From Pimelobacter simplex (lineage in GTDB: Bacteria > Actinomycetota > Actinomycetes > Propionibacteriales > Nocardioidaceae), in assembly GCF_024662235.1 (NCBI RefSeq), contig NZ_CP096276.1, forward strand, positions 992,001 through 1,056,000: 64,000 nt of DNA. Reading direction: 5' to 3'. The notes beneath the pieces were generated by a model. It had not been told where the DNA came from. It searched no databases and saw only the letters and a program-made list of their open reading frames with translations. Below, piece by piece: positions 46,246 through 62,547 of the stretch. The translations under genes were made by a program, and so were the position numbers. Position 1 is the stretch's first letter. Every line of letters begins with the position of its first letter.

Positions 46246-46532
46246 TGCCCATGTTCGGCCGCAAACGCAAGGACCCCGAGCCCGCGGGCCCGGTACCCGT
46301 CGACGTCGCGATCCGCGACGAGTCGATCCGGCTCGGTCAGTTCCTCAAGCTCGCCAACCTGGTCGAGTCCGGGGCCGAGGCCAAGCCGGTCATCGCCGAC
46401 GGGCTGGTCCAGGTCAACGGCGAGGTCGACACCCGCCGGGGGCGCCAGCTCCGGGTCGGGGACGTCGTGGAGCTGAACGGGCAGGCCGCCCGGGTCGCCG
46501 ACGGCGACGTACCGGACGACCTGCCCTGGTAG
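46245..46532 (+). CDS. S4-domain RNA-binding protein
   Basis: A 95-residue protein with an S4 domain (IRLGQFLKLANLVESGAEAKPVIADGLVQVNGEVDTRRGRQLRVGDVVEL), resembling small YbcJ/Hsp15-like proteins that bind structured RNA or ribosomes. It starts within the stop of the DUF445 gene (TGATG). Confidence 0.85.
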   Translation: MPMFGRKRKDPEPAGPVPVDVAIRDESIRLGQFLKLANLVESGAEAKPVIADGLVQVNGEVDTRRGRQLRVGDVVELNGQAARVADGDVPDDLPW

Positions 46533-46552
46533 GTCGTGCGCTCGAGCTCAGC

Positions 46553-46924
46553 TCACTTCACGTCGAGCAGGTCGACCACGAAGATCAGCGTCTCGCCCGG
46601 CTTGATCACGCCACCGGCGCCACGGTCGCCGTAGCCCAGGTGCGGCGGGATGACGAGCTGGCGGCGGCCGCCGACCTTCATGCCCTGGACGCCGGTGTCC
46701 CAGCCCTGGATGACCTGGCCGATGCCGAGGCGGAAGTCCAGCGGCGCGCCGCGGTTGTACGACGCGTCGAACTCCTCGCCGCTGGACAGCGCGACGCCGA
46801 CGTAGTGGACCGACACGGTGTTGCCGGCCGCGGCCTCGGCGCCGTCGCCGACGGTGAGGTCGGTGATGACGAGGTCGGTGGGCGGGGTGGGGTCGACGAA
46901 GTCGATCTCAGGCTTCTGGCTCAT
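46553..46924 (-). CDS. FKBP-type peptidyl-prolyl isomerase
   Basis: A 123-residue cytosolic FKBP domain with VSVHYVGVALSSGEEFDASYNRG, GQVIQGWDTGVQGMKVGGRRQLVIPPHLGYG and ETLIFVVDLLDV; all main FKBP pocket residues appear present. It catalyses prolyl cis-trans isomerisation in protein folding. TAGGCT lies 6 nt before the ATG, so it is leaderless. It is divergent from the PP2C operon. Confidence 0.93.
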   Translation of the reverse strand: MSQKPEIDFVDPTPPTDLVITDLTVGDGAEAAAGNTVSVHYVGVALSSGEEFDASYNRGAPLDFRLGIGQVIQGWDTGVQGMKVGGRRQLVIPPHLGYGDRGAGGVIKPGETLIFVVDLLDVK

Positions 46925-46930
46925 CCCGCC

Positions 46931-47009
46931 AGCCTAGGACCTCGGGTGCGACCCGCGGGATCCGCGGGTCGGTGAAGGGTCGGTAGATCGCGCCGGCACC
47001 TTGTAGGCT
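46931..47009. promoter_or_regulatory. Divergent promoter region of FKBP and PP2C operon
   Basis: The minus-strand -10 TAGGCT (46931-46936) serves FKBP. The plus-strand TAGGCT (47004-47009) serves the seven-gene operon, with a leader of about 55 nt. Between them lies a 9-bp inverted repeat GACCCGCGG-GAT-CCGCGGGTC (46950-46970), a possible operator for both. Confidence 0.6.
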
Positions 47010-47071
47010 GCGCGCAGAGCGTCCCACCGCAGGATGGATGGGATCGATGGGGAGGTCTCGGGGGGAACGCC

Positions 47072-47893
47072 GTGCGGGTCAACGCGACAGGTGCCGAGGC
47101 GTGGACGTCGCCGGACAGTGCGTCGCGCCTGGTCTACGCCGCCGGCACGCACCCGGGGCGGGTCCGCGACCTCAACGAGGACTCCTCGCTGGTGGCGCCG
47201 CCGGTCTTCCTGGTCGCCGACGGCATGGGCGGCAACGACCGCGGTGACGTCGCGAGCCGGCTGGTCGCGGAGTCGTTCGAGCCGCTGGCCACGCTGCCGC
47301 TGGTCGAGGCGGGCGACGTCGAGGCCGCCATCGTGGCCGCGCAGCACCGGGTGGGGGCACTGGCCGATCCGGCCGAGGGGGCGGCGGCGCCGGGGTCGAC
47401 GCTGGTCGCGGCGGCGCACGTGCTCCAGGACGGGCACGGGTACTGGCTGCTGGCCAACATCGGCGACTCCCGCGCCTACCTGTTCACCGCCGACGGGGTC
47501 CTCGACCAGATCTCGAAGGACCACTCCGTCGTCCAGGAGCTCATCGACGCCGGCCGGCTGACCACGGACGAGGCCATCGGGCACCCCGAGCGGCACATCA
47601 TCACCCGGGCGATCGGCGCCCTCAGCGCCGCCCAGGCCGACTTCTCGCTGGTGCCGGCCGAGCCGGGGGCGCGGCTGCTGCTGTGCTCCGACGGACTCAC
47701 CTCGGAGCTCTCCGACACCGCCATCGGGCACATCCTCTCCGAGCGGATGCCGGCCGACCGCACCGTGCTGACCCTGGTCGACGCGGCCGTCTCGGCCGGC
47801 GGGCACGACAACGTGACCGTCGTGGTGATCGACGTCGTGGCCACCGCCGGACCCGACGAGGACACCAGCCCCGCGCCCTGGGAGCGGCGATGA
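47072..47893 (+). CDS. PP2C-type protein Ser/Thr phosphatase
   Basis: A 273-residue cytosolic phosphatase with all PP2C motifs: RDLNEDSS, VADGMGGNDRG, GSTLVAA, NIGDSRAYL, KDHSVVQEL, CSDGLTSEL and GHDNVTVVV, which supply the metal-binding aspartates. It should remove phosphates from Ser/Thr placed by the kinase two genes downstream. GTG 47072 has a GGGGGGAA site. It is the first gene of a seven-gene operon and overlaps the FHA gene by 4 bp. Confidence 0.93.
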   Translation: MRVNATGAEAWTSPDSASRLVYAAGTHPGRVRDLNEDSSLVAPPVFLVADGMGGNDRGDVASRLVAESFEPLATLPLVEAGDVEAAIVAAQHRVGALADPAEGAAAPGSTLVAAAHVLQDGHGYWLLANIGDSRAYLFTADGVLDQISKDHSVVQELIDAGRLTTDEAIGHPERHIITRAIGALSAAQADFSLVPAEPGARLLLCSDGLTSELSDTAIGHILSERMPADRTVLTLVDAAVSAGGHDNVTVVVIDVVATAGPDEDTSPAPWERR

Positions 47894-48870
47894 GCACGGC
47901 GTACGTCCCGGGCGAGCTGGCCACGCTGGTCACCGGCGACGCGATCGTCCTCGCCCCGGCCGACCGGCTCGCCGACCTCGTCGCGCTGGCCGGACCAGGC
48001 CTGAGCCCCGCCCCCGCGGCCTGGACCGCCGCGCTCGGCGGCCTGCCCGAGCTCGCCGCCGTCGTGCGCGAGGGCGACGTGCTGCGCCTGCTCGCCCGCG
48101 GTGGGTACGCCGTGCGCGCGGGCGGGTTGAGCGTCGACGGCCGTGCGGGTGCCCCGGGCACCACCACCGAGACCTCCACCCCGCTGACCGCCGGCGTCGT
48201 CGTCGAGCTCGGTCCGCTCGGGGTGGCGCTCACCGGAACCGGACCCGGTCCCGCGCTGCTGCCCATCGGCGCCGGCGTCGTGCGCAGCGGCGGCGTCCGC
48301 TGGTGCCCGCTGGGGGAGCCCGCCCCGGCCCCCGCGGCCCCCGCGGCTCCCGAGCACACCGTCGTCCGCGGGGCGGCCCCGGTCGCACCGGCCATCCCGG
48401 TCGACCCCGACCACGACGGCCGCACCATCACCCCGGCCCAGCTCCAGGCGCTGCGCGCCACCCCGTCCGCCGCCGTGCCCGCAGCCCCACCCCCGCCCCT
48501 GCCGCCGCCCCCGCCGGTCCGCCCGCTGGTCGCGCTGCGCCTCTCGACCGGCCGTGTCGTCCCCGTACGACGCCGGGTGCTCGTCGGCCGCAGCCCCCGG
48601 GTGCAGCAGGTCGGCGGCAGTGCCAACCTGCCCGCGCTGGTCACCGTGGACGATCCCTATGTCTCCGGGACCCACCTCGAGGTCTCCTCCGACGGCACCC
48701 GGGTCACCGCCACCGACACCTCCACCAACGGCACGCTGCTGACCCGGCCCGGCCAGATCCCGGTCCCGCTCGACCACGGGGTGCCGACCGAGGTGGCGAT
48801 GGGTGACGTGCTCACGCTGTCCAAGGGCGTCACCGCGACCGTCGTCCCCGCGCACGAGGCGGAGGGCTGA
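47890..48870 (+). CDS. FHA-domain protein
   Basis: A 326-residue protein. Residues 1-150 form an unrecognised globular part, about 150-215 are Pro/Ala-rich (PPPPLPPPPP), and about 218-320 are an FHA domain with VGRSP, SGTHLEV and STNGTLL, which bind phosphothreonine. It should dock onto kinase-phosphorylated proteins and act as an adaptor. It overlaps the PP2C gene by 4 bp and ends 2 nt before the kinase gene, in the usual kinase-phosphatase-FHA cassette. Confidence 0.9.
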   Translation: MSTAYVPGELATLVTGDAIVLAPADRLADLVALAGPGLSPAPAAWTAALGGLPELAAVVREGDVLRLLARGGYAVRAGGLSVDGRAGAPGTTTETSTPLTAGVVVELGPLGVALTGTGPGPALLPIGAGVVRSGGVRWCPLGEPAPAPAAPAAPEHTVVRGAAPVAPAIPVDPDHDGRTITPAQLQALRATPSAAVPAAPPPPLPPPPPVRPLVALRLSTGRVVPVRRRVLVGRSPRVQQVGGSANLPALVTVDDPYVSGTHLEVSSDGTRVTATDTSTNGTLLTRPGQIPVPLDHGVPTEVAMGDVLTLSKGVTATVVPAHEAEG

Positions 48871-48872
48871 GC

Positions 48873-50342
48873 ATGCACGCGCCGCACATCCCCGGGTTCA
48901 CCTACGTCGACCTGGTCGGCGAGGGCGGGTTCGCCGACGTCTTCCGCTACCAGCAGGAGCTGCCGACCCGGCAGGTCGCGATCAAGGTGCTGCGCAGCGG
49001 CAGCGATCCCGCCTCGCTGGACCTGTTCCGGGCCGAGGCCAACGTGATGGCCCAGCTGTCCAACCACCCCTCGATCGTGCCGATCTACCAGGCCGGGGTG
49101 AGCTCCGACGGGCGTGCGTTCCTGGTCATGGAGTTCTGCCCGCCGCCCCACGTGGCCCAGCGCTACCGGGTGCAGCCGCTGGCCGTGGGCGAGGTGCTCG
49201 ACATCGGCGTCAAGATCGCCAGTGCGGTCGAGACCGCCCACCGGGCCGGGATCCTGCACCGCGACATCAAGCCGCACAACATCCTGACCAGCACCTTCGG
49301 GGTGCCGCTCCTGACCGACTTCGGCATCGCCTCGGTGGTCGGCCAGGCGGGGGCGGCCGGCCAGGCGCTGTCGATCCCGTGGTCGCCGCCCGAGACGCTG
49401 ACCTCCGACAGCCACGACGTGCGCAGCGACGTCTACTCGCTCGCGGCGACCCTCTACTCGCTGCTCATCGGGCACTCGCCCTACGAGCGCCGGGACGCGG
49501 CCAACGACAACGCGACGATGATGACCCGGATCGAGCGTGGCCAGCTGACGCCGCTGCGCCGTCCCGACGTGCCGCCCTCGCTGGTCGACGTGCTGCGCCG
49601 GGCGATGTCGGTCCAGGTCGAGAAGCGGCCGGTCTCGGCGATGGTGCTGGGCCGCCAGCTCCAGGACGTCCAGATCGAGCTGCGCCAGTCGCCGACCCGG
49701 CTCGAGGTGATGGACGCCTCGCCGTCGGCGCTGGTCGAGGAGCACCCCGACGACGCGCGGACCCTGGTCCGCCCGGTCTCGGTGATCATCCCGGCCGAGG
49801 TCAGCGCGCGCCCGGCGCCCGTGCGTCCCGCCATCGACGAGTCCACCCGGAACCCGGGCACCGACGTGGTGACCGGGGGCTCGCGCAGCGGACCGGCCCC
49901 GCGCCGTACCGAGGAGCGCCGGCTCGGCACCGGCGGCCGGGTCGCCGTCGGCGCGGTCGCGGCCGTGCTCGCCGGCGCGGTCGGGTACGCCGTGCTCGCC
50001 GGCGGGGGCGACGAGGGCGACCCGCGCTCGGGCCCGCTGCGCGGCGAAAAGCCCCCCGACGCGGTCCAGGCGCTCGACGCCCCGGCGCCGCCGGTGGTCA
50101 GCTCGTCGGGCACCGGCACCCGCTACACCTTCCGCTGGCAGCAGGCCGACCCCGAGCCGGAGGACTCCTTCAAGATCCGCTTCCGCAACGACGGCGTCGC
50201 CGGCAAGGCGGAGTACACCGAGGAGACCAGCCGCACGGTGACCGTCGCCCCCAAGGAGTCGGTCTGCCTGCAGGTCTCGCTGCAGCGCCAGGGCCGCCCC
50301 ATCTCGGCGCCCTCCACCGAGGTCTGCGAGGTGGGCCGGTGA
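48873..50342 (+). CDS. Membrane Ser/Thr protein kinase
   Basis: A 489-residue kinase. The domain spans about 8-270: GEGGFADVF (P-loop), Lys38 in VAIK, HRDIKPHN near 129, DFG near 149, and SPPE in place of APE. A basic, Pro-rich linker leads to one membrane helix (about 355-374), then an extracellular ~110-residue Fn3-like domain (TGTRYTFRWQQADPE...RQGRPISAPSTEVCEVG). The single-pass layout suits a receptor kinase whose outer domain could bind the giant Fn3/Ig protein encoded next. GTGA overlap of 4 bp with that gene. Confidence 0.93.
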   Translation: MHAPHIPGFTYVDLVGEGGFADVFRYQQELPTRQVAIKVLRSGSDPASLDLFRAEANVMAQLSNHPSIVPIYQAGVSSDGRAFLVMEFCPPPHVAQRYRVQPLAVGEVLDIGVKIASAVETAHRAGILHRDIKPHNILTSTFGVPLLTDFGIASVVGQAGAAGQALSIPWSPPETLTSDSHDVRSDVYSLAATLYSLLIGHSPYERRDAANDNATMMTRIERGQLTPLRRPDVPPSLVDVLRRAMSVQVEKRPVSAMVLGRQLQDVQIELRQSPTRLEVMDASPSALVEEHPDDARTLVRPVSVIIPAEVSARPAPVRPAIDESTRNPGTDVVTGGSRSGPAPRRTEERRLGTGGRVAVGAVAAVLAGAVGYAVLAGGGDEGDPRSGPLRGEKPPDAVQALDAPAPPVVSSSGTGTRYTFRWQQADPEPEDSFKIRFRNDGVAGKAEYTEETSRTVTVAPKESVCLQVSLQRQGRPISAPSTEVCEVGR

Positions 50343-53300
50343 TCCGCCGGTGGCGCCGCACGGCGTCCGCGACCGCGCTCGCGCTGCTGCTCGGCACGCT
50401 CGTCGTCCTCGCGTTCGAGCACGACGGCAAGCCGTTCACCGAGGTCGACCTCAACGACGGCGGCGTCTGGGTGACCAACCAGAAGGACGGCCTGGTCGCC
50501 CGCCTCAACCCACAGATCGAGGAGCTCGACCTCGGCGTCGACTCCGGCAGCGCCGAGTTCGACATCTTCCAGCGCGGCACCAGCCTCTACGTCGACGACG
50601 CGTCCGCCGAGCGCGCGGTCAAGCCGGTCGACGTCGCCCGGGCCAGCGTGCTCGACCCGACCGCGCTGCCGACCGGCGCCGTGGTCGCCCACGGAGGGGA
50701 CACCTTCGCGGTCGTCGACACCGTCAGCGGCAAGGCCTGGGTCCGCTCCGGCGAGGCGCTGCGCGGCTTCTCCGCCAAGACCACCAAGCCCGACCTGACC
50801 GGTGCGCTCACCGCGGCGGTCGGTACCGACGGCCGCGCCTACGTGCTCGGCCGCGACGGCGAGGTCACCCCGGTCAGCACCGACGAGACCGGCTTCGCGG
50901 TCACCGAGGACAAGATCGACCTCGGCGGCGACGTCGGCCGCGAGGCCGCCGACGTCACCCTCACCGTGGTCGGCGAGACCCCGGTGCTCTACAACCGCAG
51001 CACCCTCGAGCTGAGCCGCCCCGACGCCGACCCGGTCGTGGTCGAGGCCGCCGACCCGACCACCGTCGCGCTCCAGCAGCCCTCGGACGCGGCCGACGAC
51101 GTCTACGTCGCGACCCACGACGGGCTCTACACCGTCCCGCTCGAGGGCGGCGGGCTCGACAAGGTCAGCCGCGGCGAGGTGGCCGGGCGGCCGGCGGCGC
51201 CGGTCGTGATGTCCGGTACCCGCTGCGTCTACGCCGCCTGGGCCGACCCGGCCTCGACCAGCAACTACCTGCGCGACTGCGCCGACGACGCCGACGACGA
51301 CACCGCGCCGGTCCCCGACCTGCAGCCCGGCGCCGAGCTGGAGTTCCGGGTCAACCGCGACGTCGTCGTCCTCAACGACACCCGGACCGGCGACAGCTGG
51401 CTGGTCCAGGAGCCGGGCAAGGCCAAGATCGACAACTGGCCGGCCGTCGACCCCCACAACCAGAACCGGTCCAAGCTCAAGGAGACCACCGAGGAGGTCC
51501 CGGACCAGGAGAACCGCCCGCCCGAGCCCCAGAACGACTACCTCGGCGCCCGGCCCGGCCGGACCACGGTGCTCCCGGTGGTCGCGCTCAACGACCACGA
51601 CCCCGACGGCGACATCATCAGCATCGTCAAGACCACGCCGGCCACCAGCGGGCCCGACTTCGAGGTGCGGATCGTCGGTGGCGGCACGCAGCTCCAGGTC
51701 ACGGTGCCCGCCGACGCCACGGGCACCTCGGTCTTCCGCTACTACGTCACCGACGGCAAGGTCATCGACCAGGTCCCGGCCGAGGTGCACCTGCAGGTCC
51801 GCGAGGAGGGCCAGCAGACCAAGCCGCGGCTGATGGACGACCGCGACCCCCAGCTCAACGTCGTGCGCGGGGCGACCGTCGACTTCTACCTCCTGGCCGA
51901 CTACGTCGACGCCGACGGCGACGACCTCACGCTGCGTGACGCGACCGCGCGCGGTGGCGACGTGGAGTTCCGGCCCGACGGCACGCTCACCTTCACCGAC
52001 GACGGCACCGGCGCCGACAGCGCCGAGATCCAGTACACGATCGACGACGGCTTCGACACCGTCGGCGGCAAGCTCAAGGTCCAGGTGCTCGACAAGGCCG
52101 CGCCACCCGAGCTGGTGCCCGACCTCGCCTCCGGCGTCGCCGGCACCCAGGTCGTCGTCCAGCCGCTGACCAACGACCGCAACCCCGAGGGCACCGACCT
52201 GACCCTCAAGGGGGTCAAGGTGGTCGGCGACGACTCGGGCACGAGCATCACCAAGGACCTCGACAACGGCACCTTCACCTTCGAGGCCGCCAAGGCGCGC
52301 AGCTACTACCTGGAGTACTCCGCCTACAACTCCTCCGCGACCGGGTCCTCCATCGTCCGCCTCGACATCGAGTCCCCGCCCAAGGACAACCGGCCGCCCA
52401 TCGCGGTGCGCGACAAGGCGGTCATCACCCCCGGCGGCACGGCCCAGGTCGACCTGCTGCTCAACGACCTCGACCCCGACGGCGACGTCCTCGTGGTCAC
52501 CCGGGTCGGGCGGCCCTCCAACGACGGCGTCAAGGTCTCGATCGTCGACAAGCGCCTCGCCGTGGTGAGCGCGACGACCGACCTCGCCGGCCAGCCCGCG
52601 ACGGTCGAGTACTCCGTCTCCGACGGCCGCAGCTCGACCACCGGCCAGCTCGTGATCTCCCAGGCCAACCAGGCCAACCGGCACCCGGTCGCCAACAAGG
52701 ACCAGGTCACCGTGCGCGCCGGGTCGGTGACCACGATCCCGGTGCTCGACAACGACTCCGACCCCGACGGCGGCAAGCCGCGCCTGTTCCAGTCCGACCT
52801 CCTCAACGAGCAGGAGCTCGAGGTCTGGGTGGCCGGCGACGCGCTGCGCCTGCGCGCGCCGGACGAGCCGGGCAGCTACTCGGTGATCTACGGCGTGCGC
52901 GACACCGAGGGGCTCAAGGCGACCGCCCAGGTGAGCATCTACGTCATCGCGGACTCGGCCGAGAACAACCACCCGCCGATGCCCCAGCCGATCACCGACC
53001 GGGTCATCGCCGGGCGGTCCAAGGTGATCTCGGTCGACCTCGTCGGCGCCGACCCCGACGGCGACTCGGTCGCGTTCAGCAGCATCCTCACCGCGCCCTC
53101 GCTCGGCCGGGTGCTCGAGACCGGCGTCGACTGGATCCGCTACGAGGCCTTCGCCGACAAGGCCGGCACCGACTTCTTCCAGGTCTCGGTCCAGGACAAG
53201 TACGGCAAGAAGGGCGTCGCCGAGGTACGCGTCGGCGTGGTCCCCGTGGAGGCCGAGAACCAGCCGCCGGTGGCGCTCGACGACAACGTGCTCGTCCAGC

Positions 53301-56300
53301 CCAACCGGACCATCTCCTACAACGTGCTGACCAACGACGTCGACCCCGACGACGACCCGCTGCGGATCACCGAGATCAACAGCCCGGTCAAGCCCCAGCC
53401 CGAGCACCACAACGGCTTCGTCGAGCTCGAGGTGGGCGATGCGCCCGACACCGGGTCCGCCGCGACCAACATCGGCTACACGATCGAGGATGCCGCGGGC
53501 GCCCAGGACCACGCCGTGCTCAAGGTCTCGGCGAGCCGGGACGCGCCGTTCTACGCGCCGATCGCGCGCGACGACGTGGCCGACCTGAGCGACATCATCG
53601 GCCGCGACCCGGGCGAGTGGGTCGACGTACCGGTGCTCGACAACGACCTCGACTTCGACGGCCCCAAGGCCGACCTGCGGGTCACCAAGTGCATCCCCGG
53701 CGCCAAGGGGGAGTGCGAGGTCGGCGAGGGCGAGTCGCAGGTGCGGGTCCGGCTCACCGCCGAGGACCAGGTCGTGCTCTACCGCCTCGACGACGCCGAC
53801 GACGAGTCGTCGGACACCTTCGGCGTCATCTACGTCACCGGCACCGACAACGTCCCGCCGCAGCTGACCACCGACAAGGACCGGATCCCGGTCAAGGCGG
53901 TCGCCGGCGAGAAGGTCGTCTTCGACCTCGACGACCTCGTCGTGACCCGGGCCGGGCGCGAGCCGCGGATCGTCCCCGACCGGTCGCTGTCCGCGGTCAA
54001 CGGCCAGGTCGACAGCGTCGAGGGCGCCCCGACCTCGCTGTCGTTCCTGCCTGCGCGCGGCCACGCCGGGCCCGCGTCGGTGTCGGTGTGGGTCAGCGAC
54101 GGCCGGACCACCGGCGAGGACGCCGGTCTCGTCTCGCTGCTGACCATCCCGATCGACGTCAAGCCCGCGGGCAACGTCGCGCCCGAGATGCGCGGCGCCG
54201 CGGTCGACGTCGGGGTCGACGGCGAGGCGGCCGAGGTCGACCTGGCCGGGCTGACCCGGGACGCCAACGAGGACGACCTCGACACGATGACCTACACCGT
54301 GAAGTCGGCGGCCTCGGGGCTCACCGCGACCATCGCGTCGGGCGAGAGCGTCCTCTCGATCGAGGCCGGCGGCGGCGTCAGCGACGGCGACACGCTGCGG
54401 GTCGAGGTCACCGCGGACGACGGCCACGGCGGCACGGCCGAGGCGACCGTCACCGCCCACATCGTCGACAGCGACCGCCCGCTGCTGCAGATCCCGCCGA
54501 TCACCGTGGCCGCGGACAAGGACGAGGTGCGCTCGGTCGACCTCGCCGACTACGCCGTCAACCCCTACCCGGGCGAGCCGATCAAGGTCAGCAAGGCCCG
54601 GATCGAGAGCGGCAAGGGCCTCGACGACCTCGAGACCGCCGGCTCCAGCGTCTCGTTCCGCCCGGTCGGCTTCGGCACCTCCACGATCAAGGTCACCGTC
54701 AGCGACGCCTCGGGCGACGAGTCGCGCTCGGTGCCGGGCCGGGTCAACGTGGTGGTCGTCGACGCACCCGCGGCGCCGGCCCGCCCGACCCTGTCGTCGG
54801 TCGAGGCCTCCTCGGCCGTGCTGTCGTGGCGCGAGCCGGAGTCCAACGGGGCGCCGATCACCGAGTACGAGGTCCGTGGCTCCCACGGCTTCCAGCAGGT
54901 CTGCACGGCCACCACCTGCACCCTCGCCGACCTCACCCCCGGCGAGACCTACACGTTCACGGTCCGCGCCCGGAACAAGGTCGGCTGGGGCGACCCGAGC
55001 CCCGCCTCCGAGGGGATCACGCCCAACAAGGCGCCCGACCTGATGACGCCGCCCACGATCGTGGTCGAGCCCCGCCCGACCGGCAGCCGGATGGACCGCC
55101 AGCTCACGGTGCGCTGGACCCCGCCCGCCAACGAGGGCTCGGCGATCACCGGCTACGAGATCAAGGAGGCCGGCAGCGGCCGCTCCTGGACTGCCCCGGG
55201 CGGCGCGACGTCGTACACGGTGCCGGGGCTCGACAACGGCACGCCCTACGCCTTCGAGATCCGCGCGATCAACGACGTCGAGCCGCGCCGGCAGTTCTCG
55301 GGTGCCTCCCAGGCGGTCGCGCCGTTCGGCGTACCGGTCCGCTCGGGCGCGCCGCCCCAGCTCACCGCGAGCGAGGACAGCCCCTACACCAACGAGCCGT
55401 GGGTGCGCATCGACTGGTCGCGGTGGTCGGAGTCGCAGAGCAACGGCAACCCCGTCTCCGAGTACGTCATCAGCTGCAGCGGCTGCAGCCGGTCGAGCTA
55501 CACGGTCGGCGCCACGGCGACGTCCAAGACCTTCGGCGCCGGCGACGGCATCCGCAAGGGCCAGCAGGTCACCCTGACCATCGCCGCGACCAACGACGCC
55601 GGCACCAGCGACCGCAGCCCCAGCGTGACCGGGCGGCCGTGGACCAAGGCCGGCCCGGTGCGCAACCTGCGCGAGGTCGGCAGCTCCACGGCCGACCGTA
55701 CGGCGACCATCGGCTGGGACCCGCCGGCCGACGACGGCGGCCTGCAGATCCGCCACTACGTCGTGCAGACCGGGTCGGGCACCTCCGTCACCGTGCCGTC
55801 GGCGCCGGGCGGCGGCGGGCGCGAGATCACCTTCCCCGACAACGGCACCCATGAAGTCCGGGTGTGGGCGGTGACCTTCAACGGCGACCGTGCCGTCGAG
55901 GGCCAGGCCGACTCGCTCGGCGGGATCCTCACCTGGGGCAAGCCGTTCCCGCCCGACGACACCTCGCGCACGAGCACCAGCTACTACGGCGTGGACCTGC
56001 GGCTCCAGGCCGGCGCGCCCAACGGCAAGCCGGTGACCGGCGTCCAGTTCAGCACCGACAACGGGGCGACCTGGACCGACAAGCGCTCGGGGGAGTACTG
56101 GTCGGGCGCGGTCGACCAGGGCGGTGCCACCGCGCGGATCCTGGTCCGGACCCGCTCGTCGGCGACCGGCGACCGCGAGTTCAGCGACCCGGTGGCGATC
56201 ACGGGCACCTCCAAGGAGAAGTACCTCGCGATCGGCATCTCCTGCAACATCCTCGGCCGGTGCGCGATCAGCGTCGACGGCGACGGCTTCATCCGCGCGC

Positions 56301-56476
56301 CCCGCGACGCCGTCGTCTCGCTCAACGGGCTCAGCGTCTACAACGACTCGTGCGGCTCGTTCACCCAGTCGGTCAACGGCACGTTCGACTACACCGCCGG
56401 CGGCAACGGCTGCCGCGTCACCGGCGACGCCAAGCCCTCGGTCACCGTCGACGGCGTCTCCCGCACCGCCCCCTGA
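50339..56476 (+). CDS. Giant Ig/cadherin-like and Fn3 repeat surface protein (2045 aa)
   Basis: A GTG-started protein with an N-terminal membrane or signal helix (RRWRRTASATALALLLGTLVVLAF). A beta-propeller-like region (about 35-385) follows. About eleven cadherin/Ig-like repeats of ~100 residues come next (about 390-1475), several with the calcium-ligand-like NDxDPDGD motif. Four Fn3-type domains (about 1476-1870) and a Cys-containing C-terminal region (about 1870-2045) complete it. No LPXTG motif is present. It is anchored by its N-terminal helix or secreted, and acts outside the cell, probably in adhesion or sensing. Coupled to the kinase gene by a 4-bp overlap, it is the likely client or ligand of the whole operon. 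Confidence 0.9.
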   Translation: MIRRWRRTASATALALLLGTLVVLAFEHDGKPFTEVDLNDGGVWVTNQKDGLVARLNPQIEELDLGVDSGSAEFDIFQRGTSLYVDDASAERAVKPVDVARASVLDPTALPTGAVVAHGGDTFAVVDTVSGKAWVRSGEALRGFSAKTTKPDLTGALTAAVGTDGRAYVLGRDGEVTPVSTDETGFAVTEDKIDLGGDVGREAADVTLTVVGETPVLYNRSTLELSRPDADPVVVEAADPTTVALQQPSDAADDVYVATHDGLYTVPLEGGGLDKVSRGEVAGRPAAPVVMSGTRCVYAAWADPASTSNYLRDCADDADDDTAPVPDLQPGAELEFRVNRDVVVLNDTRTGDSWLVQEPGKAKIDNWPAVDPHNQNRSKLKETTEEVPDQENRPPEPQNDYLGARPGRTTVLPVVALNDHDPDGDIISIVKTTPATSGPDFEVRIVGGGTQLQVTVPADATGTSVFRYYVTDGKVIDQVPAEVHLQVREEGQQTKPRLMDDRDPQLNVVRGATVDFYLLADYVDADGDDLTLRDATARGGDVEFRPDGTLTFTDDGTGADSAEIQYTIDDGFDTVGGKLKVQVLDKAAPPELVPDLASGVAGTQVVVQPLTNDRNPEGTDLTLKGVKVVGDDSGTSITKDLDNGTFTFEAAKARSYYLEYSAYNSSATGSSIVRLDIESPPKDNRPPIAVRDKAVITPGGTAQVDLLLNDLDPDGDVLVVTRVGRPSNDGVKVSIVDKRLAVVSATTDLAGQPATVEYSVSDGRSSTTGQLVISQANQANRHPVANKDQVTVRAGSVTTIPVLDNDSDPDGGKPRLFQSDLLNEQELEVWVAGDALRLRAPDEPGSYSVIYGVRDTEGLKATAQVSIYVIADSAENNHPPMPQPITDRVIAGRSKVISVDLVGADPDGDSVAFSSILTAPSLGRVLETGVDWIRYEAFADKAGTDFFQVSVQDKYGKKGVAEVRVGVVPVEAENQPPVALDDNVLVQPNRTISYNVLTNDVDPDDDPLRITEINSPVKPQPEHHNGFVELEVGDAPDTGSAATNIGYTIEDAAGAQDHAVLKVSASRDAPFYAPIARDDVADLSDIIGRDPGEWVDVPVLDNDLDFDGPKADLRVTKCIPGAKGECEVGEGESQVRVRLTAEDQVVLYRLDDADDESSDTFGVIYVTGTDNVPPQLTTDKDRIPVKAVAGEKVVFDLDDLVVTRAGREPRIVPDRSLSAVNGQVDSVEGAPTSLSFLPARGHAGPASVSVWVSDGRTTGEDAGLVSLLTIPIDVKPAGNVAPEMRGAAVDVGVDGEAAEVDLAGLTRDANEDDLDTMTYTVKSAASGLTATIASGESVLSIEAGGGVSDGDTLRVEVTADDGHGGTAEATVTAHIVDSDRPLLQIPPITVAADKDEVRSVDLADYAVNPYPGEPIKVSKARIESGKGLDDLETAGSSVSFRPVGFGTSTIKVTVSDASGDESRSVPGRVNVVVVDAPAAPARPTLSSVEASSAVLSWREPESNGAPITEYEVRGSHGFQQVCTATTCTLADLTPGETYTFTVRARNKVGWGDPSPASEGITPNKAPDLMTPPTIVVEPRPTGSRMDRQLTVRWTPPANEGSAITGYEIKEAGSGRSWTAPGGATSYTVPGLDNGTPYAFEIRAINDVEPRRQFSGASQAVAPFGVPVRSGAPPQLTASEDSPYTNEPWVRIDWSRWSESQSNGNPVSEYVISCSGCSRSSYTVGATATSKTFGAGDGIRKGQQVTLTIAATNDAGTSDRSPSVTGRPWTKAGPVRNLREVGSSTADRTATIGWDPPADDGGLQIRHYVVQTGSGTSVTVPSAPGGGGREITFPDNGTHEVRVWAVTFNGDRAVEGQADSLGGILTWGKPFPPDDTSRTSTSYYGVDLRLQAGAPNGKPVTGVQFSTDNGATWTDKRSGEYWSGAVDQGGATARILVRTRSSATGDREFSDPVAITGTSKEKYLAIGISCNILGRCAISVDGDGFIRAPRDAVVSLNGLSVYNDSCGSFTQSVNGTFDYTAGGNGCRVTGDAKPSVTVDGVSRTAP

Positions 56477-56494
56477 TCCGCCCGAAAGGAAATC

Positions 56495-57466
56495 ATGTCG
56501 CTCACGACCGAACAGACCGAGTGGTTCGCGCAGACCTTCGCCCAGCTCGTCGCCAACGTCGAGCAGGCCATCGTCGGCAAGACCGAGGTCGTCCGGCTCG
56601 CGTTCGTCGCGCTGCTCGCCGAGGGCCACCTGCTGCTCGAGGACTACCCGGGCACCGGCAAGACCTCGCTGGCCCGGGCGATCGCCCAGACGATCCACGG
56701 CGACCACCACCGGATCCAGTTCACGCCCGACCTGCTGCCCAGCGACGTCACCGGCGTGACGATCTTCGACCAGCGCAGCCAGGAGTTCGAGTTCCACCAG
56801 GGGCCGATCTTCTCCAACATCGTGCTGGCCGACGAGATCAACCGGGCCTCGCCCAAGACCCAGTCGGCGCTGCTCGAGGTGATGGAGGAGAACCAGGTCA
56901 CCGTCGACGGCATCACCCACCCGGTCGGCCAGCCGTTCATGGTGATCGCGACCCAGAACCCCATCGAGCAGGCGGGCACCTACCGGCTGCCCGAGGCCCA
57001 GCTCGACCGGTTCCTGATCAAGACCTCGCTGGGCTACCCCGACCACGAGAGCACCGTCCAGATCCTCACCAACGCCCCCAAGGGCAAGGCCGCGACGGTG
57101 CTGCGCCCGATCATCAGCGGCGACAACGTGCTCCACCTGATCGGCCTGGCCCAGCAGGTGCACGTCGAGACGGCCGTCTACGAGTACGTCTCCGGGCTCA
57201 CCGAGGCGACCCGCGAGTCCTCCGAGGTCGTGCTCGGCACGAGCGTGCGCGCCGGGCTCGCCCTGGTCCGCGCGGCGCGGGCGCTGGCGCTCTCCTACGG
57301 CCGCACGTACGTCGTCCCCGACGACGTCAAGACCCTCGCCGTTCCGGTCCTCGCGCACCGGATGGTGCTCGACCCCGAGGAGGACTTCCGCGGCACCACG
57401 TGCGAGGACGTCGTGCGCCGGGTCCTCGAGCGCGTGCCCGTCCCGCTGGAGCCCGCTGCTCGATGA
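56495..57466 (+). CDS. moxR: MoxR-family AAA+ ATPase
   Basis: A 323-residue ATPase with Walker A (DYPGTGKTS), Walker B (VLADEINRASPKTQ), sensor 1 (ATQNPIEQ) and the C-terminal winged/lid region with the conserved SVRAGLALVRAARALAL. MoxR proteins are chaperone-like ATPases that act on VWA-domain or other partner proteins, often with DUF58. AAAGGA precedes the ATG. It lies 18 bp after the giant protein gene, and overlaps the DUF58 gene by 4 bp. Confidence 0.94.
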   Translation: MSLTTEQTEWFAQTFAQLVANVEQAIVGKTEVVRLAFVALLAEGHLLLEDYPGTGKTSLARAIAQTIHGDHHRIQFTPDLLPSDVTGVTIFDQRSQEFEFHQGPIFSNIVLADEINRASPKTQSALLEVMEENQVTVDGITHPVGQPFMVIATQNPIEQAGTYRLPEAQLDRFLIKTSLGYPDHESTVQILTNAPKGKAATVLRPIISGDNVLHLIGLAQQVHVETAVYEYVSGLTEATRESSEVVLGTSVRAGLALVRAARALALSYGRTYVVPDDVKTLAVPVLAHRMVLDPEEDFRGTTCEDVVRRVLERVPVPLEPAAR

Positions 57467-58746
57467 GTCCCCGCTCCTGGGTGGCCGGCGTCCGCCGTAC
57501 GCTCACCGCTGCCTCCCGGCGCCGCGCGGCGCTGGGCGGTGCGCTGCGCGACCGGGTCGCCGAGCGCACCGGGCGGGTGCGGACGGCGCTCGCGCCGGTC
57601 ACCGACACGGTCACCCCGGCCGGGTGGCTGGTCGGGCTGCTCGCCGTGGTCCTGGTGGTCGCGGGCCCGCTGCTGCACTGGCGCGAGCTGGTCGTCGGCG
57701 GGGTCTTCCTGGGGCTGGTGCTGCTCATCGCGATCGGCTTCGTCGTGGGCCGCTCACCGCTGGCCGCGCGGCTCGACCTCGCCCGGGACCGGGTGATCGT
57801 GGGGGAGCGGGCCAACGGCTACCTCACCGTGACCAACCCCAGCCAGCGCCGGGCGCGGCCGCTGATCGTGGAGTTCCCCGTGGGCGCGGGCCGGGCGGCC
57901 TTCGAGCTGCCCGCCCTGGCACCGGGGGCGCTGCACGAGGAGCTGTTCGCCGTCCCGACCGCGCACCGGGCCGTCCTCGACGTCGGACCGGTCACCGCGG
58001 TCCGCGCCGACCCGCTCGGGCTGCTGCGCCGGGTGCGCCACCTGAGCGAGATGGACCGGCTCTACGTGCACCCCAAGACGCTGCGCGTCGACGGCTCCGC
58101 GGCCGGGCTGGTGCGCGACCTCGAGGGCCGCACGGTGCCCAAGGTCTCCGACAACGACGTCTCGTTCCACGCGCTGCGCGGCTACGTCGCCGGCGACGAC
58201 CGGCGCCACATCCACTGGCGCTCGAGCGCCAAGACCGGCACCCTCATGGTCCGCCAGTTCGAGGAGACCCGCCGCTCGCACCTGCTCACCGTGGTGAGCT
58301 CGCGGCTCGAGGACTACGGCAGCGACGACGAGTTCGAGCTCGCCATCTCGGTGGCCGGCTCGCTCGGCACCCAGGCGCTCGCCGACGGCCAGCAGCTCAG
58401 CGCCGCGGCCTCGCACGGATCGCTGCCCTCCAACGGGGCGCAGCGCTTCCTCGACGGTCTGTCGGGCCTCGCCTACGACTGGCAGGCCCGCCGGATCGTC
58501 GACGTCGCGCGCCACCTCGGCAACGACGAGCTCGCCGCGAGCGTGATCGTGCTCTGCCTGGGCTCGGGCGTGAGCATCACCGACCTGCGCCGCGCCCGCC
58601 AGCACCTGCCCGTCGACACCCGGGTGATCGCGGTGCGCTGCCTGACCGGCACCGAGCCGTCGGTGCGCTGGCTCGGCGATCTCGCCGTGGCCACGGTCGG
58701 GCGGCTCGACGAGCTCGCGGTCGCCGTACGACGGGTCGCGGCATGA
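57463..58746 (+). CDS. DUF58 membrane protein
   Basis: A 427-residue protein with a basic N-terminus, two membrane helices (about 50-90), and a beta-rich region. The DUF58 core signature is at about residue 245 (YVAGDDRRHIHWRSSAKTGTLMVRQFE), followed by a VWA-like C-terminal fold. DUF58 proteins are the usual partners of MoxR ATPases and transglutaminase-like membrane proteins. Overlaps of 4 bp on both sides tie it to MoxR and the next gene. Confidence 0.92.
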   Translation: MSPRSWVAGVRRTLTAASRRRAALGGALRDRVAERTGRVRTALAPVTDTVTPAGWLVGLLAVVLVVAGPLLHWRELVVGGVFLGLVLLIAIGFVVGRSPLAARLDLARDRVIVGERANGYLTVTNPSQRRARPLIVEFPVGAGRAAFELPALAPGALHEELFAVPTAHRAVLDVGPVTAVRADPLGLLRRVRHLSEMDRLYVHPKTLRVDGSAAGLVRDLEGRTVPKVSDNDVSFHALRGYVAGDDRRHIHWRSSAKTGTLMVRQFEETRRSHLLTVVSSRLEDYGSDDEFELAISVAGSLGTQALADGQQLSAAASHGSLPSNGAQRFLDGLSGLAYDWQARRIVDVARHLGNDELAASVIVLCLGSGVSITDLRRARQHLPVDTRVIAVRCLTGTEPSVRWLGDLAVATVGRLDELAVAVRRVAA

Positions 58747-61124
58747 GCGCGCCCGCGGTCAGCGGCAGCCAGCCGGTCGTCGTCGTCCCCCAGCGGGGAC
58801 GGCGGGCCGGAGCGGCGCTGCCGTGGTGGCTCGTCGCGGTCGACGCCGTGCTGGTGCTCGGGCTCGGCGTGCTCTGCGCCTGGCCCCTGGGTGCCGCCTA
58901 CGCCGGTGACCGCTGGCTGCTCGCGGTCGTGGTCGGGCTGCTGCTCGGCGTGCTCGTCGGGTGGCTCGGCGCGCGCTGGCGATGGGGGCCGTGGACGACG
59001 ACGCTCGCCGCGGCGGTGGGCTACTTCGCGGTCGGCTCGGCGGTCGTCGTACCGCTGCGGGCGCGGGGTGGCTTCGTCCCGACGGCGGACTCGCTGCGCG
59101 ACCTCACCGTCGGCCTGGTGCACGGCTGGCGCGAGGCGCTCACCCTGCCGGTGCCGCTCGGCGAGAGCGGCGTGGTGCTGATCGTCCCGCTGGTGACCGG
59201 CCTGGTCGGCGCGCTGGTGGCCACCGTGCTGCTGTGGCGCTCGAGCCGGCCGGGGCTGGCCGGCGTCGTCCTCGGTGGGGTGCTCGTGCTGTCCTCGGCG
59301 TTCGGCGACATCACCGCCGGCGCCGCCCTGACCCGCGGCCTCGCCGTCGCCGCCGTCGGCCTGGTCTGGCTGCAGTGGCGCGGGCAGCGTCACGTCCGCG
59401 GCCGCTGGGGCCGCCGGGTCCTCGCGACCCTGCTCGTCGTCGGCGTGGCCGGCGGTGCCGCCACCGGGCTGGGCGCCCTCGGCGACCCCGAGGCCCACCG
59501 CGTCGTCCTGCGCGACCACGTCGACCCGCCGTTCGACCCCCGCGACTACCCGAGCCCCCTGGCCAAGTTCCGCGCCTACAAGAAGGAGCCGATCCGCACC
59601 GAGACGTCGCTGTTCACCGTCGACGGCCTCGACAGCGGCACGCTCGTGCGCCTCGCGGTGATGGACACCTACGACGGCGTCGTCTGGAACGTCTCCGGCG
59701 GACCCGGCTCACCCCACGACTCGGGCACCTTCCGGCGGCTGCGCAACGACCCCGACGCCAACGCCGAGGCCACCGTGCGCGGCCGGATCACCGTCGGCGC
59801 CTACACCGGCGTCTGGGTGCCGAGCGTCGGCGAGACCCTGGCGATGACGCCGATCCGCGACGGCCGCACCGACGACGCCTCGGCCGCCGAGCTCGTGATC
59901 AACCCCGAGACCGGCACGGTGGCCCAGATCGGGGGCGTCGCGCCCGGCACCACCTTCGAGGTCGAGGCGATCGCGCCGCCGTCCCTGGTCAACGAGGAGA
60001 TCGCGGTGCTCCAGGCCGACGCGGGCGTCTCGCTCCCGCCGCCGGCGATCGTCCCCGAGGAGCTCGTCGACCGGGTCCAGCGCTGGAAGAGCCAGGACGG
60101 CTTCGGCGGCGGCACGGACGGCGAGCTCGCCCAATACCTGCGCGACGCCTTCCGCGAGCACGGCTTCTACTCCGACGGCATCGACGACGACGTCCCGGCC
60201 GGCCACGGCGCGAGCCGCCTCGCCATGCTCACCAAGACCGCGAACCCGGTCGGCAACGCCGAGCAGTACGCCGCCGCGATGGGCGTCATCGGCCAGCGCC
60301 TCGGCCTGCCCATCCGGGTGGTCATCGGCTTCAAGGTGCCGCCGGGCGGCGGCGACGTCCGCGGCGAGAACGTGACCGCCTGGACCGAGGTCAAGCTCGA
60401 GGGCGCCGGCTGGGTGCCCTTCGAGCCCACCCCGCCCGAGGACCAGAAGCTGCGCCAGCCCAACGACGAGCCCGACGAGGAGCCGCAGCCCCAGGTGCTC
60501 CAGCCGCCCCGGGTCCCCGGTGACCCCAAGGAGGCCAGCGACAACCTCCAGCAGGGCGACGGCCAGCGCAAGGACCTCGACATCCTCGAGGTGCTCGGCG
60601 CGATCATCGGCGTCGTCCTCGACGTCGCCAAGGTGCTGCTGCTCCTCTCGCCGCTGTGGGGGGTGCTGCTCTACAAGCTGCTGCGCCGGCGCCGGCGCCG
60701 CCGGGCCGGTGACCCCACGGTGCGCCTGACCGGCGCCTGGCACGAGCTGGCCGACCGGATGCGCGACCTCGGCGTCCGCTCCGCGCCGGGGGCCACCCGC
60801 CGCGAGAGCGCCTACGCCGCCGCGGACCGCTACGACGTCGTACCGGTGGTGACGCTGGCGCACACCGCCGACCGCCACGTGTACGGCGAGGGCGAGCCCA
60901 GCCTCGACGAGGCCCAGGCCTACTGGGCCGACGTCGACACCGCGCTCAAGCGGCTGCGCAAGGCGACCCCCTGGTGGCGCCGCGTCCTGGCCCGCGTCTC
61001 GCTCGCCTCGGTGCCCTGGCGCCCGGCGTCCGCGCGCGCCCGGGCGGCCCTGGGCCGTCCGTTCCGCCGGGCCGGTGGGACGCTGCGGCGGTGGGCGGGG
61101 CGGCTGCGGCCGAGGCGCCGGTAG
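58743..61124 (+). CDS. TgpA-like membrane protein with degenerate transglutaminase domain
   Basis: A 793-residue protein. The N-terminal part holds around six to seven membrane helices (about 25-240, DUF3488-like) and an extracytoplasmic part (about 250-600) holds the transglutaminase-like fold. The positions of catalytic Cys, His and Asp are Ala506 (GNAEQY), Thr545 (VTAWTEV) and Glu561 (GWVPFEPTP), although the surrounding motif is well kept, so the enzyme is probably inactive. A Pro/Glu/Gln-rich stretch, one more helix near 625-645 and a basic cytosolic tail follow. Last gene of the operon; it may be a scaffold or substrate-binding pseudoenzyme. Confidence 0.9.
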   Translation: MSAPAVSGSQPVVVVPQRGRRAGAALPWWLVAVDAVLVLGLGVLCAWPLGAAYAGDRWLLAVVVGLLLGVLVGWLGARWRWGPWTTTLAAAVGYFAVGSAVVVPLRARGGFVPTADSLRDLTVGLVHGWREALTLPVPLGESGVVLIVPLVTGLVGALVATVLLWRSSRPGLAGVVLGGVLVLSSAFGDITAGAALTRGLAVAAVGLVWLQWRGQRHVRGRWGRRVLATLLVVGVAGGAATGLGALGDPEAHRVVLRDHVDPPFDPRDYPSPLAKFRAYKKEPIRTETSLFTVDGLDSGTLVRLAVMDTYDGVVWNVSGGPGSPHDSGTFRRLRNDPDANAEATVRGRITVGAYTGVWVPSVGETLAMTPIRDGRTDDASAAELVINPETGTVAQIGGVAPGTTFEVEAIAPPSLVNEEIAVLQADAGVSLPPPAIVPEELVDRVQRWKSQDGFGGGTDGELAQYLRDAFREHGFYSDGIDDDVPAGHGASRLAMLTKTANPVGNAEQYAAAMGVIGQRLGLPIRVVIGFKVPPGGGDVRGENVTAWTEVKLEGAGWVPFEPTPPEDQKLRQPNDEPDEEPQPQVLQPPRVPGDPKEASDNLQQGDGQRKDLDILEVLGAIIGVVLDVAKVLLLLSPLWGVLLYKLLRRRRRRRAGDPTVRLTGAWHELADRMRDLGVRSAPGATRRESAYAAADRYDVVPVVTLAHTADRHVYGEGEPSLDEAQAYWADVDTALKRLRKATPWWRRVLARVSLASVPWRPASARARAALGRPFRRAGGTLRRWAGRLRPRRR

Positions 61125-61126
61125 CC

Positions 61127-61151
61127 GTTGACAAGTGACAGCACTGTCAAC
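61127..61151. promoter_or_regulatory. Nested palindromic operator upstream of the lipase gene
   Basis: GTTGACA-N11-TGTCAAC (61127-61151) encloses TGACAG-CA-CTGTCA (61136-61149). The site starts 2 nt after the stop of the previous gene and lies 59 bp before the lipase start. It looks like a TetR-type operator; it also contains a TTGACA -35 match. No regulator gene is adjacent. Confidence 0.65.
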
Positions 61152-61209
61152 AAGCATGAGGCGGCCGGACGTGACTCCCGTCACGCGGCGCGACATGGGG
61201 AGGTCGGCG

Positions 61210-62547
61210 ATGGGCGGCGCGCGCATGCGGAGGGCATGGTTCGGGGGAGCGCTCGCGACGGTCGTCGCGGTGCTCGCGACGCTCGCACCGGCGTCCGCGA
61301 CAGCGACGGCGAGCCCGGTGACCGCACCGGCGCCCGACCCGTTCTTCACCTACACCGGCGCCACGCCGCTGCGTGACCACCCGCCCGGGACGGTGCTCAA
61401 GACCCGGGCGCTGCCCTACCGGGTCGCCGGGGTCCCGCTGCCGCTGCGGGTGGTCCAGATCGTCTTCCGCACCACCGACCAGCAGGGCCGGGCGGTCGCG
61501 GGGGTGACCTCGGTGATCAAGCCCCTGACCGGGACGACGAGCCGGGTGATCTCCTACCAGTCCTTCTACGACTCCCTCGACCCCGAGCACGGCCCGTCCC
61601 GCGCGATCGCCGGCAGCACCGCGCCGGGCGCGATGGCCGCGCACGTCGAGACCGTGCTGATGTCGGCCTTCCTGCTGCGCGGCTACGCGATCGTCATGGC
61701 CGATACCGAGGGCCCGACCGCCGACTTCGCCGCGGGGCCCGAGTACGGGCGGGTCACCCTCGACTCGATCCGGGCCGCGCTGCGCACGCCGGCCACGGGT
61801 ATCGCACCGGCCGCGAAGGTCGGGATGGTCGGCTACTCCGGGGGCGCTGTCGCGACCAACTGGGCCGCGGTGCTCGCGCCGTCGTACGCCCCGGACGTCA
61901 ACCGGCGCCTGGTCGGCGCGGCCGAGGGCGGCGTGCTGGTCCGCCCGGCCGCCAACCTGCGCTACGTCGACGGCAGCCTGGTCTGGGCGGGCGTGATGCC
62001 GATGGCCGTGGTCGGGGTGGCCCGCGGGTTCGGGGTCGACCTGATGCCCTACCTCAGCGACGAGGGCAGGCGGATCTACGCCCGGCTGGAGAAGGCGCCC
62101 ATCATCGACGTGCTCGGCCGCTACCCGGGCCTGACCTGGGCCGACCTGACCAAGCCGGCGTACGCCGACCCGGCGAACATCCCGGTGTTCGTGCGCACCG
62201 TCAACCAGCTCAACCTCGGCACCCAGCCCGTCCCGACGGTCCCGATGTTCATCGGGCAGGGCACCGGCGGCCAGATCGAGGGCACCCGGGGCGACCGCCC
62301 CGGTCTCGGCAAGGGGGACGGCGTGATGCTGGCCGGCGACGTCCGGTCGCTGGCGCGCAAGTACTGCGCGGGCGGGGTCGCGGTGGTGCACCGGGAGTAC
62401 CCGCTGAGCCACTTCACGTCGGTCCCGTTCTGGCTGCCCGAGGCGATCGCGTGGCTCAGCGCGCGCTTCGCCGGCCAGCCGGCGCCCGACAGCTGCGCGA
62501 CGATCCCGGCCGGCAACCCGCTGACCCCGCTGGCACCGGCGCGCTAG
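61210..62547 (+). CDS. Secreted lipase (LIP/triacylglycerol lipase family)
   Basis: A 445-residue protein with a signal peptide (RRAWFGGALATVVAVLATLAPASA-ATA type cleavage). The mature part has an IS-YQSFYDSLDPEHGPS region, MVGYSGGAVATNW with the GxSxG nucleophile, and a late CAGGVAVVHREYPLSHF with a candidate catalytic His. It belongs to the secretory lipase (PF03583) type and should hydrolyse esters or triacylglycerols outside the cell. ATG 61210 is chosen because GGGGAGG lies 6 nt upstream; longer in-frame starts lack a ribosome site. It is regulated by the palindrome at 61127. Confidence 0.87.
   Translation: MGGARMRRAWFGGALATVVAVLATLAPASATATASPVTAPAPDPFFTYTGATPLRDHPPGTVLKTRALPYRVAGVPLPLRVVQIVFRTTDQQGRAVAGVTSVIKPLTGTTSRVISYQSFYDSLDPEHGPSRAIAGSTAPGAMAAHVETVLMSAFLLRGYAIVMADTEGPTADFAAGPEYGRVTLDSIRAALRTPATGIAPAAKVGMVGYSGGAVATNWAAVLAPSYAPDVNRRLVGAAEGGVLVRPAANLRYVDGSLVWAGVMPMAVVGVARGFGVDLMPYLSDEGRRIYARLEKAPIIDVLGRYPGLTWADLTKPAYADPANIPVFVRTVNQLNLGTQPVPTVPMFIGQGTGGQIEGTRGDRPGLGKGDGVMLAGDVRSLARKYCAGGVAVVHREYPLSHFTSVPFWLPEAIAWLSARFAGQPAPDSCATIPAGNPLTPLAPAR

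Follow-up and report, generated by a model that had tools for sequence, protein, structure and literature searches.

A seven-gene operon of Pimelobacter simplex and its likeness to the PFNA operon of Bifidobacterium

The window analysed here, a stretch of 64,000 nucleotides (positions 992001-1056000 of contig 1) from a Pimelobacter simplex genome of 6.26 Mb in three contigs, carries at positions 47072-61124 seven genes which almost certainly represent a PFNA-type operon and not a new kind of operon. All seven open frames could be found on the plus strand, as described in the initial annotation, and their identities are backed by Pfam, although the TgpA_N and DUF4129 domains of the last protein score below their cut-offs. 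The nearest named proteins are from Pimelobacter simplex (93% identity for the DUF58 protein and 82% for the giant protein). Lengths are given in amino acids (aa).

47072..47893, plus strand: PP2C-type serine/threonine phosphatase (prpC counterpart), 273 aa; PF13672, 45 bits; Stp1 model, 187 bits (cut-off 230, not reached).
47890..48870, plus strand: FHA-domain protein, 326 aa, FHA domain at residues 233-310; PF00498, 27.5 bits; overlaps the PP2C gene by 4 base pairs (bp).
48873..50342, plus strand: membrane serine/threonine kinase (pkb2 counterpart), 489 aa, with kinase domain at 11-259 (Pkinase, 133 bits), one transmembrane segment at ~357-375 and ectodomain cysteines 465 and 485.
50339..56476, plus strand: giant surface protein (fn3 counterpart), 2045 aa; Pfam Big_9, cadherin-like and fn3 matches, AlphaFold, profile comparison, hydropathy.
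56495..57466, plus strand: MoxR-family AAA+ ATPase (aaa-atp counterpart), 323 aa; AAA_3, 215 bits; AAA_lid_2, 77.5 bits; Walker A and B sequences present.
57463..58746, plus strand: DUF58 protein, 427 aa; PF01882, 40 bits; AlphaFold and fold comparison.
58743..61124, plus strand: TgpA-like membrane protein (tgm counterpart), 793 aa; Transglut_core, 46.8 bits; alignment columns.

Neighbouring genes overlap by 4 bp at four of the six junctions (PP2C/FHA, kinase/giant, MoxR/DUF58 and DUF58/TgpA), while the FHA and kinase genes lie 2 bp apart and the giant and MoxR genes 18 bp apart. The initial annotation had counted five such overlaps, which clashes with the two exceptions that it listed itself.

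The PFNA operon of Bifidobacterium is described as consisting of pkb2, fn3, aaa-atp, duf58 and tgm, to which some species add prpC and fha (PMC8430577, PMC6803598), and in the window the same core order of kinase, giant FN3 protein, MoxR, DUF58 and transglutaminase is present on one strand. The giant fits the PFNA FN3 protein in length (2045 aa as compared to ~2000), in its hydrophobic segment (residues 8 to 26) and in its fn3 matches near the expected residues 1480 to 1670. In B. longum GT15, the operon has been reported to be co-transcribed and its MoxR to be phosphorylated by the kinase Pkb2 (PMC8430577). The available text of one study restricts the operon to bifidobacteria and suggests that such Fn3 domains were perhaps acquired from eukaryotes (PMC10688814), and a review calls a mycobacterial moxR operon similar to it in the sections available (PMC12067865). 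The accessible portions of the open-licence papers cited here contain no statement placing the operon outside Bifidobacterium, and earlier reports may exist. That both gene sets, the kinase-phosphatase-FHA one and the MoxR-DUF58-transglutaminase one, are wired to one surface protein was inferred in the initial annotation; the linkage stands, and the combination is already that of the published operon.

The range of the operon was surveyed in loci which were all selected by similarity of DUF58, so that every count below is conditional on that subfamily and is not a natural frequency. A class sample of 148 genomes, through which alone the window's own order is represented, was searched with the window DUF58 and gave a two-tier result. 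All 16 fetched loci L008-L023 (from 11 genomes besides the window's own) contain a giant frame of 1794 to 2409 residues, whereas no giant was found at the thresholds used in the weaker-scoring loci L024-L047. Among 347 genomes from the order to which G106 belongs, 232 pass a loose threshold of 1e-35, the weakest matches probably not being of the operon type. A scan of named genomes with a Bifidobacterium query was limited to the best 80 of 581 confirmed stretches, ranked by closeness to the query; 41 of these are titled Bifidobacterium, and the other 39 include Microbacterium, Herbiconiux, Agreia, Cellulomonas, Cellulosimicrobium, Arthrobacter, Paenarthrobacter, Sanguibacter, Georgenia and Oerskovia. 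At the level of the phylum, 12 of the 296 genomes sampled pass 1e-60, and among five loci fetched from other classes the giant is present in four (L168-L171) and not found in L172.

After removal of seven duplicate loci of the Bifidobacterium family (DUF58 identical to that of named Bifidobacterium loci, for example L048 and L088 of B. italicum, by which family f41 is recognised as the Bifidobacterium family), 158 distinct fetched loci remained, the window not counted. A giant was regarded as linked when it lies on the same strand within 9 kb of DUF58. By this measure 125 of the 158 loci bear a giant, 49 of them in the Bifidobacterium family, including the 41 named loci, and 76 outside it. The published restriction to Bifidobacterium is thus an error of range and gives no ground to exclude the window. 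The giant is upstream of DUF58 in all of the 125 loci except L084, where it is downstream, and both MoxR and TgpA are also present in 123. At DUF58 scores of at least 240 bits, a line chosen after the scores had been seen, the giant occurs in 123 of 129 distinct loci, as compared to 2 of 29 below it (the Bifidobacterium-family loci L061 and L062), and the arrangement is therefore more than chance. Homologous operons with the giant usually absent or unlinked had been named beforehand as what would speak against the linkage; with DUF58 as the anchor the operon holds, and three of its six misses (L149, L158 and L159) lie at contig ends. The other three are L140, where unrelated genes stand directly upstream and MoxR is missing, L024 and L073.

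Within fetched stretches of limited length, the kinase could be seen in 110 and PP2C in 92 of the 125 giant-bearing loci. All 49 loci of the Bifidobacterium family have the kinase upstream and on the same strand; among the other 76, it is upstream in 26 loci and downstream in 30, lies on the opposite strand in 5 and was not seen in 15. In 15 of these 76 loci, as in the window, kinase and PP2C both lie upstream. The common gene orders resemble rotations of a single cycle, PP2C-FHA-kinase-giant-MoxR-DUF58-TgpA. Some loci depart from the usual layout: in L065, two DUF58-TgpA-kinase sets flank one giant, and in L083 two giants are adjacent, the second being split into two frames. TgpA, MoxR or giant frames are also split in some Bifidobacterium assemblies (L106, L111, L120 and L123), by sequencing error or decay. 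Eight MoxR-DUF58-TgpA loci (L031, L032, L035, L037, L038, L081, L082 and L172) have an upstream frame of ~700-1000 residues, weakly similar to the N- or C-terminal part of the giant, which is possibly a small version of a giant-type client.

A DUF58 tree (116 rows, quick method, midpoint root) places the 19 rows of the Bifidobacterium family in one clade with a Shimodaira-Hasegawa-like approximate likelihood ratio test (SH-aLRT) support of 100. This clade is grouped (95) with Actinotalea, Cellulomonas, Flavimobilis, Sanguibacter and some other loci inside the operon part of the tree, and some of its branches are long. The giant-less L024 also falls within the operon part, as expected of a loss, and the giant-bearing L171 falls among the non-operon rows. 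In two genomes with three copies each, taken together with L070, the five components sort alike into L013-L014, L016-L020 and L017-L018-L070. The operon is probably an old actinobacterial locus which Bifidobacterium inherited and did not invent.

The giant itself is predicted to begin with a membrane anchor and a beta-propeller. Its hydrophobic segment (residues 8 to 26) is followed by the predicted propeller (~37-371), Big_9 and cadherin-like repeats (~400-1460) and five Fn3-like modules (~1470-1960). The AlphaFold model of residues 1 to 500 has a mean predicted local distance difference test score (pLDDT) of 90.5, and its propeller was recognised by fold comparison. Pfam finds two fn3 stretches, the best at residues 1479 to 1558, and the protein aligns with the giants of Bifidobacterium. 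Of 119 distinct giants, drawn from inside and outside the Bifidobacterium family, 117 retain the first Fn3 module with its cysteine pair (1522 and 1527). Since this module and its cysteine pair are shared so widely, a eukaryotic origin of the Fn3 domains appears to be an assumption that is not needed, though it is not disproved. No giant of the fetched loci (0 of 122) combines an LPxTG-like C-terminal signal with a transmembrane segment, as a sortase-anchored adhesin would, and in the window giant hydropathy shows no C-terminal hydrophobic segment.

These observations bear on the published view of the operon as a host-interaction device, in which FN3 serves for adhesion and as a receptor of cytokines, and immune ligands of the host are sensed by the kinase. 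The available reports describe FN3 fragments of B. longum that bind TNF-alpha in vitro and an FN3 of B. bifidum S17 that mediates adhesion (PMC10688814, PMC12607495). In agreement with this, the WSxxS motif of the first Fn3 module is present in 48 of 49 distinct rows of the Bifidobacterium family as compared to 7 of 70 others. However, the full WSxWS motif shows the opposite distribution (0 of 49 as compared to 11 of 70), and giant and DUF58 stand together in the 76 loci outside the family. Some of the genera concerned are soil and plant bacteria. The presence of the operon in numerous free-living relatives makes it unlikely that it originally served a purpose in host immunity; in Bifidobacterium, its use in a host may have been a secondary adaptation. 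As an account of the operon as a whole, host interaction seems unlikely to us.

The kinase has the kinase domain, the transmembrane segment and the outer domain of a membrane serine/threonine kinase, and the kinase motifs HRD and DFG can be read in its sequence. The initial annotation had called its outer domain Fn3-like. Pfam does not recognise the last 100 residues of the window kinase, and hhalign of the ectodomain against eight pieces of the giant gave a best probability of 47%. The outer region has been called highly variable in the accessible part of an earlier study (PMC8430577). Judged from our alignment, its core is not variable: every one of the 107 ectodomains with 85 or more residues has exactly two cysteines, at the same two columns, and so do all 100 that remain when duplicates are removed. 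The other 8 of 115 kinase rows lack an ectodomain of this length. Their frames are cut or broken in L063, L064 and L145, and their tails are shorter in L056 and L126. The remaining three, L017, L018 and L070, belong to one sub-type, characterised by a kinase that stops soon after the transmembrane segment and by a giant whose N-terminal part has strongly diverged; in genomes G094 and G117, this sub-type is an extra copy beside ordinary operons.

The conserved cysteines and the coincidence of a truncated kinase with a diverged giant are what could be expected of an envelope-state sensor, with the giant as a wall- or neighbour-binding ruler, the kinase as its reader and the MoxR set as the device that resets it. 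However, the three loci concerned form one clade and perhaps reflect a single event, and Pfam finds no wall-binding domain in the window giant. We consider this explanation improbable.

The DUF58 protein is predicted to combine membrane helices with a vWA-like fold. In its AlphaFold model (mean pLDDT 90.3), two transmembrane helices (~52-94) precede a beta-sandwich (~97-205) and a fold at ~270-427 for which a second aligner returned vWA matches. Together with a MoxR protein and a propeller, such a fold recalls the MoxR-vWA-propeller class of biological-conflict systems, and the window MoxR does score 46.7 bits with PF20030, above the cut-off of 27. Its score with AAA_3 is, however, 215 bits. 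The published class, so far as its description is available (PMC7159879), fuses the propeller to the vWA protein, while in the window the propeller follows a hydrophobic segment of the giant and is absent from the DUF58 model. Pfam finds no effector domain in the seven proteins. A conflict system is very improbable; among the functions suggested in the initial annotation, it finds no support, and adhesion and sensing are already published views.

The transglutaminase-like domain of the TgpA-like protein has alanine in place of the catalytic cysteine and threonine in place of the histidine. Across 126 operon rows including the window, the cysteine column contains aspartate in 55, serine in 50, alanine in 9, glycine in 6, glutamate in 5 and one gap, in L162, which is cut by a contig end. 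Since none of the 125 readable operon copies has the cysteine, the tgm product, that of Bifidobacterium included, is probably a structural pseudo-enzyme. The acidic column holds glutamate in the window, as it does in the non-operon loci L041-L047, which contain the cysteine and include L043 of the window's own genome. Other MoxR-DUF58 subfamilies outside the operon (L024-L040 and L080-L082) have TgpA-like proteins that lack it, and in a second alignment 6 of 30 non-operon rows have it (L046 was unaligned there). In actinobacteria, a dead transglutaminase next to MoxR may be a common feature. No match up to E = 1 was obtained when the whole TgpA protein was compared with solved structures.

From the linkage, the shared types and the motifs observed here, and from predicted folds and membrane segments, we propose, with a probability of about 0.5, that the giant is matured or positioned by a MoxR/vWA motor, which is linked to it by way of DUF58 and the pseudo-transglutaminase and acts under the control of kinase, phosphatase and FHA protein. 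The N-terminal hydrophobic segment would serve to insert the giant, whose propeller would lie near the membrane and whose Ig/Fn3 rod would point outward. Cytoplasmic MoxR rings would spend ATP to work on DUF58 at its vWA-like domain, in the way NorQ works on NorD, and force or a conformational change would pass through the membrane helices of DUF58 and TgpA to the outer, catalytically dead transglutaminase-like domain, which would hold the giant. The surface protein might thereby be matured, positioned or released. The conserved ectodomain of the kinase may read the state of the giant, and kinase, PP2C and FHA protein could switch the motor on and off, probably by phosphorylation of MoxR.

Several observations weigh against this mechanism. 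Contacts of the giant with MoxR and with DUF58 are hypothetical, and the propeller, being predicted as extracellular, could not meet MoxR directly. No vWA domain is named among the 50 Foldseek matches listed for the DUF58 model, and the vWA metal motif DxSxS is absent in the window DUF58 and present in 2 of 126 operon rows (1 of 33 among the other, non-operon rows without duplicates); because nearly all operon copies lack it, a NorD-like grip is not guaranteed. The catalytic histidine is kept in 43 of 126 operon rows, and the loss of the cysteine also in MoxR loci devoid of a giant shows that it is not tied to the giant. Profile comparison reveals no clear kinship between the kinase ectodomain and the giant's Fn3 modules. 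L012 and L065 have a giant and no MoxR match, while L024 and L073 have MoxR, DUF58 and TgpA and no giant in the fetched stretch.

A bolder form of the proposal, which we regard as rather doubtful, is a membrane-spanning, ATP-driven machine conserved in many actinobacteria. Here a MoxR ring would work the vWA-like protein, the dead transglutaminase would serve as an outer clamp, a propeller-headed fibre would be loaded or released, and kinase, phosphatase and FHA protein would act as the switch.

A scan of 46500-61500 returned no sigma-70-like site, other promoter types being invisible to it, and a single terminator-like site on the opposite strand; it is neutral on whether the operon is one transcript. 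About 10 bp past the stop of the TgpA-like gene, a lipase-like frame with a signal-like start (61135-62547, same strand) may be read with the operon. A small frame resembling FKBP-type peptidyl-prolyl isomerases (46553-46924, minus strand) is divergent to it. Both were identified by eye.

The published series rests its host-immunity account on an operon unique to bifidobacteria, on an fn3 gene possibly derived from eukaryotes and on the presumption that tgm encodes a cysteine enzyme. The range outside the genus, the nested position of Bifidobacterium and the missing cysteine each contradict one part of it. New in the present analysis are the cysteine-less transglutaminase, the anchor and predicted propeller of the giant, the helices and vWA-like fold predicted for DUF58 and the cysteine pair of the kinase. 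As free-living bacteria also have the operon, its basic function can be sought without a host.

The window operon is a Nocardioidaceae-type form of the PFNA operon. It shares with that of Bifidobacterium the five core genes and their order, a giant of comparable size and layout, and the phosphatase and FHA genes; it differs in having PP2C and FHA upstream of the kinase instead of downstream of tgm, and in a host near Pimelobacter and Nocardioides, beyond the published range. The giant-less MoxR-DUF58-transglutaminase operons, such as the paralogue L043 of the same genome, have MoxR, DUF58 and TgpA-like genes in the same order, but in L043 the catalytic cysteine is kept (GYCEQ) and the fetched stretch contains no giant. 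From NorQ-NorD, a MoxR-type AAA+ protein and its vWA partner, the window operon differs in the membrane helices, the beta-sandwich and the missing DxSxS motif of its DUF58 protein. If the doubtful machine reading were correct, the operon would in principle be a bacterial counterpart of midasin (Rea1/MDN1), which pulls its propeller partner Rsa4 through a MIDAS domain.
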